Shown one piece after another: positions 60,026 through 63,971 of a DNA stretch of 64,000 nt. Position numbers and translations under genes: made by a program. Within the stretch, counting starts at the first letter, position 1; every line of letters starts with the position of its first letter. Origin of the DNA: Muribaculaceae bacterium (lineage in GTDB: Bacteria > Bacteroidota > Bacteroidia > Bacteroidales > Muribaculaceae); contig JAFZHD010000018.1 of the NCBI GenBank assembly GCA_017555085.1, forward strand, positions 1-64,000, written 5' to 3'. The notes under the pieces were generated by a model. The model had not been told where the DNA came from. It did no database searches and worked only from the letters and a program-made list of their open reading frames with translations.

Positions 60026-62740
60026 ATGAAAAGAGTTTACACGTTCGGTGACGGAAAAGCCGAAGGTAATGCCTCGATGAGAAATACTCTCGGAGGTAAA
60101 GGTGCGAACCTTGCTGAAATGAACCTGTTGGGTATGCCTGTACCTCCAGGTTTTACTATTACAACAGATGTATGTACTGAATACACCCAAAAAGGTCGTG
60201 AAGCAGTTGTTGCCCTTATTAAAGAAGAAGTAGAAGCGGCAATCGCTCATGTTGAAACACTCACAGGCAAAAGCTTTGACAATCCTGCTAATCCCCTTCT
60301 CGTATCAGTTCGCTCTGGTGCTCGCGCATCAATGCCTGGTATGATGGATACAGTATTGAACCTCGGTATGAATGATGCAACAGTTGCTTCTCTTGCAGAA
60401 AAGAGCGGCAATCCTCGTTTTGCATGGGATAGCTACCGTCGTTTCGTTCAAATGTATGGTGACGTTGTTCTCGGTATGAAACCCGTGAGCAAAGACGACA
60501 TCGATCCATTTGAAGAAATCATGGAAAAGGTTAAAGAAGAAAAAGGCGTTAAACTTGACACAGAACTTGAAGTTGCCGATCTTCAAAACCTCGTTAAAAT
60601 GTTCAAGGCTGCTGTAAAAGAATTTACAGGCAAAGACTTCCCCGATAGCGCATGGGAACAACTCTGGGGCGGTATCTGTGCAGTATTTGACAGCTGGATG
60701 AACGAACGTGCAATTCTTTACCGTCGCATGAACCAAATTCCCGAAGAATGGGGTACTGCGGTTAACGTACAAGCAATGGTTTACGGTAACATGGGTGACA
60801 ACTCTGCTACTGGTGTTGCATTTAGCCGTGACGCTGCAACTGGTGAAAACATGTTTAACGGTGAATATCTTATCAATGCACAAGGTGAAGACGTTGTTGC
60901 GGGTATTCGCACTCCCCAACAAATTACCACAGAAGGTTCTCGCCGTTGGGCTGCTCTTCAAGGTATCAGCGAAGAAGAACGCGCAAGCAAATATCCTTCA
61001 CTCGAAGAATCAATGCCCAAGTGTGCTGCTGAATTGATTGCTATCTCAAATCGTCTCGAAGACTACTACAAAGATATGCAAGATATGGAGTTCACTATCC
61101 AAGATGGTAAACTCTGGATGTTGCAAACTCGTAACGGTAAACGCACAGGTGCTGCAATGGTTAAAATTGCTATGGACCTCTTGCGCGCTGGTCAAATCGA
61201 CGAAAAGACAGCGCTCATGCGCATGGAGCCTCAAAAACTTGATGAACTCCTCCACCCCGTATTTGACAAAGACGCTTTGAAACGTGCAAAAGTTGCTGCA
61301 AAAGGTCTTCCCGCATCTCCCGGTGCTGCAACAGGCCAAGTAGTATTCTCTGCTGACGAAGCTGAACTTTGGTCAGAAAAGAAGAAAAAAGTAGTTCTTG
61401 TTCGTATTGAAACATCACCCGAAGACCTCCGTGGTATGGCAGTTGCTCAAGGTATCTTGACAATGCGTGGCGGTATGACTTCTCACGCAGCAGTAGTTGC
61501 TCGCGGTATGGGTAAATGCTGTGTTTCTGGTGCTGGCGAAATCAAAATCGACTACAAAGAAAAAACACTCGAAATGAGTGGTAAAGTATATAAAGAAGGT
61601 GATTGGATTTCACTTAACGGTTCTACAGGTGAAGTATATGACGGTCAAGTTCCCACTACAGACCCCGAGCTCGACGGTGACTTTGGTGCAATCATGAACC
61701 TCGCTGAAAAATATACAAAAACTCTCGTTCGCACAAATGCTGACTCACCCCGCGATGCTAAACAAGCACGCTACTTCGGAGCACAAGGTATCGGTCTTTG
61801 CCGTACAGAGCACATGTTCTTTGAAGGTGACCGTATCAAGGCAGTTCGCGAAATGATTCTCGCAAGCGACAAAGAAGGTCGTGTATCTGCTCTCGCTAAA
61901 TTGCTCCCCATGCAACGTGGTGACTTCGAAGGTATCTTTGAAGCAATGGACGGTTATGGCGTGACTATCCGCTTGCTTGACCCCCCCTTGCACGAATTCG
62001 TACCACATCAAACTGCAACTCAAAAAGAGCTTGCAGAAGAAATGGGCTTGACTCTTGAACAAGTTAAAGCAAAAGTTGACAGTTTGGAAGAATTCAACCC
62101 CATGCTCGGTCACCGTGGTTGTCGTCTTGGTATCACTTACCCCGAAATCACTGAAATGCAAACTCGCGCTATCATTGAAGCAGCACTCGCAGTTAAAGCT
62201 CGCGGCATCGATGTATATCCCGAAATCATGATTCCTTTGGTTGGTTCACTCAAAGAAATCCAAAACCAGGCAGATGTTATCAACGCTACTGCTGCACAAG
62301 TATTTGCTGAAAAAGGCGAAACTGTAGCATACAAAGTAGGCACAATGATTGAAGTTCCTCGTGCTGCATTGGTTGCTGACCAAATCGCAACAGTTGCTGA
62401 CTTCTTCTCATTCGGTACAAATGACTTGACTCAAATGACATTTGGTTTCTCACGTGACGACGCTCCCAAGTTCTTGAAATTCTACAAAGAAAACGGCGTT
62501 ATCAAGACAGATCCTTTCGAAGTTCTCGACCAAGAAGGTGTTGGCCAACTCGTTCGTATGGGCGTTGAAAGAGGCCGCGCTACAAAGGCTGACCTCAAAG
62601 TTGGTATCTGTGGTGAACACGGTGGTGAACCTTCATCAGTTAAGTTCTGTGCTAAATTGGGTATGAACTATGTAAGTTGTTCTCCCTTCCGTGTGCCCAT
62701 CGCACGCGTTGCTGCTGCACAGGCTGCTATCGAAGAATAA
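60026..62740 (+). CDS. ppdK: Pyruvate, phosphate dikinase
   Basis: Interconverts PEP, AMP and PPi with pyruvate, ATP and phosphate. The 904-residue protein has the three expected parts: an N-terminal nucleotide-binding domain (GGKGANLAEM near 23-32), the swivelling phosphohistidine domain with GGMTSHAAVVARGMGK (catalytic His near 483), and a C-terminal PEP-binding barrel ending in GICGEHGGEP and NYVSCSPFRVPIAR. Codon choice favours AAC, TTC, GAC, CTC and CGT as in pfp, which marks a very abundant protein. It is flanked by its own promoter and terminator. Confidence 0.96.
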   Translation: MKRVYTFGDGKAEGNASMRNTLGGKGANLAEMNLLGMPVPPGFTITTDVCTEYTQKGREAVVALIKEEVEAAIAHVETLTGKSFDNPANPLLVSVRSGARASMPGMMDTVLNLGMNDATVASLAEKSGNPRFAWDSYRRFVQMYGDVVLGMKPVSKDDIDPFEEIMEKVKEEKGVKLDTELEVADLQNLVKMFKAAVKEFTGKDFPDSAWEQLWGGICAVFDSWMNERAILYRRMNQIPEEWGTAVNVQAMVYGNMGDNSATGVAFSRDAATGENMFNGEYLINAQGEDVVAGIRTPQQITTEGSRRWAALQGISEEERASKYPSLEESMPKCAAELIAISNRLEDYYKDMQDMEFTIQDGKLWMLQTRNGKRTGAAMVKIAMDLLRAGQIDEKTALMRMEPQKLDELLHPVFDKDALKRAKVAAKGLPASPGAATGQVVFSADEAELWSEKKKKVVLVRIETSPEDLRGMAVAQGILTMRGGMTSHAAVVARGMGKCCVSGAGEIKIDYKEKTLEMSGKVYKEGDWISLNGSTGEVYDGQVPTTDPELDGDFGAIMNLAEKYTKTLVRTNADSPRDAKQARYFGAQGIGLCRTEHMFFEGDRIKAVREMILASDKEGRVSALAKLLPMQRGDFEGIFEAMDGYGVTIRLLDPPLHEFVPHQTATQKELAEEMGLTLEQVKAKVDSLEEFNPMLGHRGCRLGITYPEITEMQTRAIIEAALAVKARGIDVYPEIMIPLVGSLKEIQNQADVINATAAQVFAEKGETVAYKVGTMIEVPRAALVADQIATVADFFSFGTNDLTQMTFGFSRDDAPKFLKFYKENGVIKTDPFEVLDQEGVGQLVRMGVERGRATKADLKVGICGEHGGEPSSVKFCAKLGMNYVSCSPFRVPIARVAAAQAAIEE

Positions 62741-62816: not shown

Positions 62817-62840
62817 AAAAAAGGCGACAAATTGTCGCCC
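62817..62840 (-). terminator. Intrinsic terminator of the non-coding RNA
   Basis: GGCGACAATTTGTCGCC (62823-62839) folds on itself, followed on the minus strand by six T (62817-62822). It points away from the promoter at 63070-63100 and faces the ppdK terminator. Confidence 0.85.
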
Positions 62841-63064
62841 TATAAAATCCACACCAAAGGATGCGATGAAACTCCGAATGACAGGATTTGAGTGCTCACA
62901 ATCCTTTGTAATCCGCCTGGGTGTAAAAACCTCTCGTTAGAGATGGGGCCCGCCATTAGATTGTTACGCTTGTCTCGGTATTTCATAAAAATTTGATGAG
63001 TTTCCCAATCAACTTTGATGTGGTAAAATTCCTATTTTGGCAAGGCTCTCTCGCCTCGTTTTCA
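62817..63064 (-). ncRNA. Structured non-coding RNA, about 250 nt; possibly 6S RNA
   Basis: The minus strand shows a complete RNA gene with no open frame: a consensus promoter (63070-63100), a transcript start expected near 63064, and an intrinsic terminator. Long-range helices are visible: 63013-63023 pairs with 62849-62859 over 11 bp with one G-U, 62998-63004 pairs with 62868-62874 over 7 bp, and GACA near 62971-62974 pairs with TGTC near 62880-62883. Inside are hairpins CTCT-AACG-AGAG (62931-62942) and AGGATT/AATCCT (62883-62905). The rod-like layout and size suggest 6S RNA, but I cannot match a family. The motifs of tmRNA, SRP RNA and RNase P RNA are absent. Confidence 0.72.
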
Positions 63065-63069
63065 TAACG

Positions 63070-63100
63070 CAAATTTAGTGTCAAAAGTTCAAATGTGCAA
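63070..63100 (-). promoter_or_regulatory. Sigma-ABfr promoter of the non-coding RNA
   Basis: On the minus strand TTG (63100-63098), exactly 20 bases, TAAATTTG (63077-63070), a full match to the Bacteroidota consensus, with GC following the box as in the best promoters of this window. Confidence 0.75.
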
Positions 63101-63214: not shown

Positions 63215-63244
63215 TTGAAAATTAAAAGAAATTTGTTATCTTTG
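63215..63244 (+). promoter_or_regulatory. Sigma-ABfr promoter of the Crp/Fnr gene
   Basis: TTG at 63215-63217, 19 bases, TATCTTTG at 63237-63244, a full match. The ATG follows 28 bases after the box. It is divergent from the non-coding RNA promoter, about 115 bases away. Confidence 0.65.
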
Positions 63245-63272
63245 TGTCGCACAAATATGTTATATAGCACTA

Positions 63273-63971
63273 ATGATTAAAAGCACTCTTGAAAAGATAA
63301 TCAGTGAAGACCTTCACGAAATTTGGAGTATTTTGGCCGATGATGAGAAACGACTCATTATGGACAATTTCATTATCCATAATTTCAAAAAGAATCAAAT
63401 AATTTATGCCGAGGGAGATGAGCCCGAATACTTGTGGTGTCTCATTAAAGGTAAGGTTAAAAAGTTCAAAGATGGTATCGGTGGACGCCAACAAATTTTG
63501 CGTCTGCATCGCCCTGTTCAGTATTTCGGTTATCGAGCATATTTTGCCGAGGAAAAGTATGTGTCAAGTGCAGCAGCATTTGAAGCATCAACTGTCGGTG
63601 CCGTGCCTTTGAGTTTGGTGAAAACGCTTATAACTAAAAATAGTGACCTCGCGTGGTTCTTTATTCACGAATTATCGCGAAATCTTGGTGGCTCTGACAC
63701 AAAAATTGTCAACCTTACTCAAAAACATATTCGCGGTCGTTTGGCAGAAGCCCTTATTATCCTTAAAGATAACTATGGCTATGAAGACGATAATTCAACT
63801 TTGCGCATTTACATGTCGCGCGAAGATTTGGCTAACTTGTCAAATATGACAACATCAAATGCGATTCGCACTCTCACAAGTTTTGTGAACGAGAAAATCA
63901 TTATCGTTGACGGCCGACGCATTAAGATTACCAATGAGCCGATGCTCAGAAAAATCAGTAAATTTGGTTAA
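63273..63971 (+). CDS. Crp/Fnr family transcriptional regulator
   Basis: A 232-residue regulator with an N-terminal cyclic-nucleotide-binding-like beta barrel (about 25-130: IIYAEGDEPEYLWCLIKGKVKKF) and a C-terminal winged helix (about 155-225) whose recognition region reads SREDLANLSNMTTSNAIRTL. There are no N-terminal Fnr-type cysteines; the ligand is unknown. RGRLAEALIILKD near 160 is the usual hinge of the family. It could act on nearby genes, including the adjacent RNA, but no binding site was identified. Confidence 0.88.
   Translation: MIKSTLEKIISEDLHEIWSILADDEKRLIMDNFIIHNFKKNQIIYAEGDEPEYLWCLIKGKVKKFKDGIGGRQQILRLHRPVQYFGYRAYFAEEKYVSSAAAFEASTVGAVPLSLVKTLITKNSDLAWFFIHELSRNLGGSDTKIVNLTQKHIRGRLAEALIILKDNYGYEDDNSTLRIYMSREDLANLSNMTTSNAIRTLTSFVNEKIIIVDGRRIKITNEPMLRKISKFG

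Follow-up and report, generated by a model that had tools for sequence, protein, structure and literature searches.

6S RNA restrains transcription globally, and some of the species bearing it have two 6S copies. In published 6S RNAs, a central bubble separates the closing stem from the apical stem; the molecule is a rod that polymerase binds as a mimic of an open promoter (PMC8876501). The polymerase copies the 5' strand of the bubble into the neighbouring helix P2, the opening of which frees the enzyme; in B. subtilis, the 3' strand of P2 thus freed pairs with the distal part of the 5' bubble strand (PMC8876501). The primary sigma factor and the promoter of Bacteroidota are unusual, and the 6S RNA of these bacteria is therefore well suited to testing how closely mimicry of the open promoter tracks the promoter itself. 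PMC7366714 gives the sigma-ABfr consensus as TAnnTTTG at -7 and TTTG near -33, and reports the detection by RNA-seq of a 6S RNA in B. thetaiotaomicron, together with pRNAs of two classes. Rfam holds a family RF01693, Bacteroidales-1, with the description "6S-Bacteroidales RNA suggested", and 6S-Flavo (RF01685) was regarded by Weinberg and colleagues as performing the 6S RNA function (PMC2864571).

The locus considered here belongs to a Muribaculaceae bacterium, and "the window" designates the whole stretch of DNA analysed, 64,000 nucleotides long. A unit on its minus strand (Table 1) is, with high probability, the gene of a Bacteroidales 6S RNA, a rod-shaped open-promoter mimic that would hold polymerase in reserve.

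Family assignment and gene unit

A cmscan search of the window returned RF01693 and one tRNA, and nothing else in Rfam. The RF01693 match extends over the whole model and reaches 125.2 bits (threshold 60, E 2e-20), so that the earlier note on this DNA, which had assigned the RNA gene to no named family, was wrong in this respect. The Rfam search that it had proposed as a check also disposes of other identities, since RNase P, tmRNA and SRP RNA, like the canonical 6S family RF00013, are without a match in the unit. The gene is single-copy in the host genome, which is 99.86% complete. Conservation among relatives, another check then proposed, was found as well: above the threshold, RF01693 is present in 33 of 61 relatives and in 30 genomes of a 148-genome sample of the order, always once per genome, and named records include Bacteroides (with B. 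fragilis and B. faecis), Prevotella, Coprobacter, Mediterranea and Muribaculaceae. Two metagenome-assembled genomes titled Clostridium and Lachnoclostridium (L134 and L137) carry a full Bacteroidales-type 6S gene scoring 144 and 182 bits; both assemblies are probably mislabelled or contaminated.

The minus-strand promoter, the intrinsic terminator and the lack of an open frame, all three pointed out in the earlier note, are borne out. With a spacer of exactly 20 nt between TTG and TAAATTTG, the putative promoter fits the sigma-ABfr consensus. Among 53 related loci, 48 have the strict pattern TTG-N(19-21)-TAnnTT[T/C]G no more than 130 nt ahead of the RNA, with the N20 spacing in 45 of these 48; random windows of the same loci gave a background of 1.6%. 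Both transcript ends are predicted, one from the -7 box and the other from the terminator, and on neither strand does the unit overlap an ORF of at least 60 aa with a normal start. The gene fits the pattern of the 6S class, that of single free-standing genes of ~200 nt which possess their own promoter and terminator.

The RNA unit lies ~170-210 nt from the start codon of a divergent gene for a Crp/Fnr-family regulator, which the earlier note considered either as a regulator or simply as a neighbour. This short distance, together with the divergent promoters, would suit an RNA acting by base pairing or in cis on the Crp/Fnr gene or on the convergent ppdK gene, but only 8 of the 53 loci, all within close relatives, have the former beside the RNA, and two have the latter, whereas the RNA itself persists in many families and its gene has its own promoter and terminator. 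Such a regulatory role is thus extremely unlikely. The Crp/Fnr gene, served by its own divergent promoter, is just a neighbour; the regulatory link was rejected because this neighbourhood is not conserved.

Table 1. Coordinates of the RNA gene unit, its structural elements and its neighbours in the window.
Feature	Position	Strand	Remarks
Promoter, primary Bacteroidota sigma factor	63070..63100	-	TTG 63100-63098, N20, TAAATTTG 63077-63070
Predicted primary transcript, ~250 nt	about 63066-62817	-	Start from -7 box, end from terminator
5' leader hairpin CGAGGC-GAGAGA-GCCTTG	63041..63058	-	Outside Rfam model; AGAG loop conserved in close relatives
6S-type RNA core, RF01693 Bacteroidales-1	62841..63025	-	Model positions 1-179
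Closing stem P1, 5' strand, 11 bp	63013..63023	-	Covariation; unpaired in Rfam model
Helix P2, 5' strand GAAACUC, 7 bp	62998..63004	-	Covariation (A2)
Central bubble, 5' strand	62977..62997	-	Position between P2 and P3
Apical arm: P3 (GAG/CUC), P4, P5, conserved internal loop AAUGGCGGGCC/GGAUUAC	62890..62976	-	Covariation in P4 and P5
Central bubble, 3' strand, short UCC/GGA hairpin	62875..62889	-	Weak pairing support
Helix P2, 3' strand GAGUUUC	62868..62874	-	Covariation (A2)
Closing stem P1, 3' strand	62849..62859	-	Covariation; unpaired in Rfam model
Candidate collapse helix: distal 5' bubble strand / P2 3' strand	62986-62975 / 62877-62866	-	11 pairs
Strong intrinsic terminator stem-loop	62823..62840	-	Perfect 8-bp stem, then T6 62822-62817
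Pyruvate phosphate dikinase gene (ppdK)	60026-62740	+	Convergent
Crp/Fnr gene promoter TTG-N19-TATCTTTG	63215-63246	+	-7 box at 63237
Crp/Fnr-family regulator gene (cNMP_binding + HTH_Crp_2)	63273..63971	+	Divergent; neighbour, outside unit

Covariation in the rod

The window RNA contains each part of the published rod, namely the closing stem, the central bubble and the apical stem by which the 6S class is defined (PMC8876501). Its folding energy is -71.3 kcal/mol, compared with -55.7 +/- 4.8 for dinucleotide shuffles (z -3.3). Two alignments of relatives were used: A1 comprises 52 related RNAs aligned by MAFFT and folded by RNAalifold, and A2 comprises 89 sequences reaching other families. 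In A1, the structure formed by P1, P2, P3, P4 and P5 has 90.9% of its cells paired versus 80.4% when shuffled, and two-sided changes affect 29 of the 43 pairs; they affect 41 of the 43 in A2, which was fitted to the model and is thus biased towards it. P1, P2, P4 and P5 of the window RNA are supported by covariation. The 11-bp and 7-bp nested helices that the earlier note had drawn correspond to P1 and P2, and the covariation test that it suggested for them reveals compensatory changes in both across relatives. In the window copy, every pair of these two helices is canonical.

Compensatory changes concern six of the seven outer pairs of P1, one pair being for instance A-U in 25 sequences and G-C in 20. 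When tested against a null that takes the tree into account, P1 obtains p-values from 5e-4 to 0.007 for 9 of its 11 pairs; these values are valid only if the structure is specified beforehand, as it was here by the single-sequence fold and the earlier note. An all-against-all covariation test, underpowered for P1, leaves this stem at E above 1 among 16471 pairs, and in the blind search only pairs of P4/P5 stand out. P2 is nearly invariant among close relatives and varies in remote ones, where AAACCU/AGGUUU and GAAGCUU/AGCUUC are found; its 98.2% of paired cells and its two-sided changes in five of seven pairs (A2, n=89) thus rest on remote homologs in a model-fitted alignment. In A2, P4 has two-sided changes at each of its 13 pairs. 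The apical pairing of the Rfam consensus, P4/P5, includes two mismatches in the window copy and two-sided changes in relatives. The Rfam model of RF01693 leaves P1 and P2 unpaired, whereas the compensatory changes support both; relatives belonging to this family thus show parts of the fold not recorded in the Rfam entry.

The minimum free energy structure of the single sequence was rejected as the one true fold because it forms the collapse helix at its centre, where covariation is scarce, whereas P2 covaries. The hairpin UUGAU/AUCAA that it places in the 5' strand of the bubble, with 75% of cells paired, is contradicted by variation.

Hairpins like that of the leader, with three or more pairs and an xAGAGx loop, were present in 16 of the 53 loci (background 0.65% per 45 nt). 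The 16 aligned instances show compensated stems, a covariation that is partly circular since these hairpins were picked partly for pairing, except for two shorter-stemmed ones (L005 and L019) added by eye.

Central bubble and proposed release of the polymerase

The 5' strand of the bubble beside P2, which is the expected template, is strongly conserved in A1. By analogy with other 6S RNAs (PMC8876501), pRNA synthesis would probably start within 62997-62991, with a product that would read roughly AUUUGAUGAGUUUCCC. The 3' bubble strand, UGUCAUUCG, bears a loose resemblance to the -7 box TAnnTTTG; a loose pattern of this kind was observed in 32 of 89 relatives versus six expected from shuffles, these sequences being related to each other.

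The single-sequence fold of the window RNA adopts the candidate collapse helix. Compared with shuffled sequences, this helix does better in a set of 53 close relatives (median p 0.03, for related sequences) but no better in 36 remote ones, and is therefore lineage-restricted at best. A possible collapse helix, like that of B. subtilis 6S-1, and the small leader hairpin are two lineage-restricted extras.

For this organism, polymerase binding, pRNA synthesis and a release step can be inferred as follows. The primary holoenzyme would transcribe an RNA of ~250 nt ending at its own terminator, and this RNA would fold into a rod consisting of P1 and P2, the central bubble and the apical arm P3-P5. 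As the bubble between two duplexes would mimic an open promoter, the sigma-ABfr holoenzyme would bind it and be kept off DNA as growth slows. Once nucleotides return, the enzyme would transcribe the 5' strand of the bubble in the direction of P2, yielding a short product RNA. This step would open P2, the freed 3' strand of which would pair with the distal 5' bubble strand to form the collapse helix, and the polymerase would be released.

Another reading is that of a 6S-shaped RNA specific to Bacteroidales with another partner, either the core polymerase or a different protein, and no pRNA templating. Ms1 of Actinobacteria offers a precedent, being described in PMC9130861 as a 6S-like RNA that binds the core enzyme, and the strongly conserved apical internal loop AAUGGCGGGCC/GGAUUACAAA of the window RNA suggests extra contacts, to which can be added the missing RF00013 match. 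This reading is nevertheless improbable given the strong conservation of the expected template, the homology with 6S-Flavo and the pRNAs reported for the Bacteroides 6S RNA in PMC7366714. The earlier note had hesitated between 6S RNA and a lineage-specific small RNA; identity as 6S RNA is favoured by the RF01693 score, the covarying architecture and the 6S-Flavo homology, and further backed by the 6S RNA and pRNAs of B. thetaiotaomicron.

Relation to other 6S families

Canonical 6S RNA (RF00013, membership threshold 46.4 bits) is absent from the host genome even at E 10, and was rejected as the family of the unit. It was not found in 147 of 148 order genomes nor in any of the 149 class genomes searched, whereas the same search recovers canonical 6S in E. 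coli, B. subtilis, Caulobacter and Synechococcus. The sole RF00013 match among the order genomes (L031, 1501-1688, 52.1 bits) lies immediately ahead of a tRNA, on a contig of 10.3 kb that may be a contamination.

A covariance model, R1, was built from A1 only, that is from Bacteroidales-1 sequences. It matches 61 of the 148 order genomes (E up to 0.001), compared with 39 for RF01693, and 22 of the 149 class genomes. The five class loci found by RF01685 are all recovered by R1 with overlapping coordinates on the same strand, the weakest match being L059 (E 4e-4). On the basis of this recovery, Bacteroidales-1 and 6S-Flavo appear to be one family. One locus, L068, is matched independently by both Rfam models (49.3 and 41.1 bits). 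The link runs through relatives, as the window RNA itself has no RF01685 match at E up to 5. No clan joins RF01693 and RF01685 in Rfam, and the link may have been anticipated by others. Wehner 2014 is said to have predicted Bacteroidetes pRNAs. A broader proposal, which is tentative and rather doubtful when taken as a whole, would be that Bacteroidota 6S RNAs, Bacteroidales-1 and 6S-Flavo together, form a single class-wide family adapted to the sigma-ABfr promoter, and that the leader hairpin with an invariant AGAG in one lineage controls processing or polymerase affinity.

Since its family is already catalogued, the gene itself is ordinary. RF01693 was known, and what is added is a modest structural description, covering P1 and P2, and the 6S-Flavo link absent from Rfam. 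The full fold supported by covariation, the wider reach of R1 and this link should make the RNA easier to study in gut commensals.

Compared with RF01693 Bacteroidales-1 (Weinberg 2010, PMC2864571), a free-standing gene of Bacteroidales, the window RNA matches all 179 positions and displays in addition a 5' leader hairpin that the model leaves outside. The 6S RNA reported in PMC7366714 is from another species, B. thetaiotaomicron, the genus of which carries RF01693. Relative to RF00013, the window RNA differs by its Bacteroidota-type promoter and presumed sigma partner, its conserved apical internal loop and its lack of any RF00013 score, but canonical 6S RNAs such as SsrS of E. coli and 6S-1 of B. 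subtilis share with it the closing stem and the apical arm on either side of a central bubble. The collapse helix and the 3' bubble hairpin of B. subtilis 6S-1 (PMC8876501) have possible counterparts in the window RNA. In two class relatives (L074, 1501-1664, and L078, 1501-1662), most of P4/P5 is missing and P1, P2 and the bubble are kept, so that the apical arm is shortened in some 6S-Flavo members. 6S-Flavo and Bacteroidales-1 share P1 and a P2 with AAACUC/GAGUUU.
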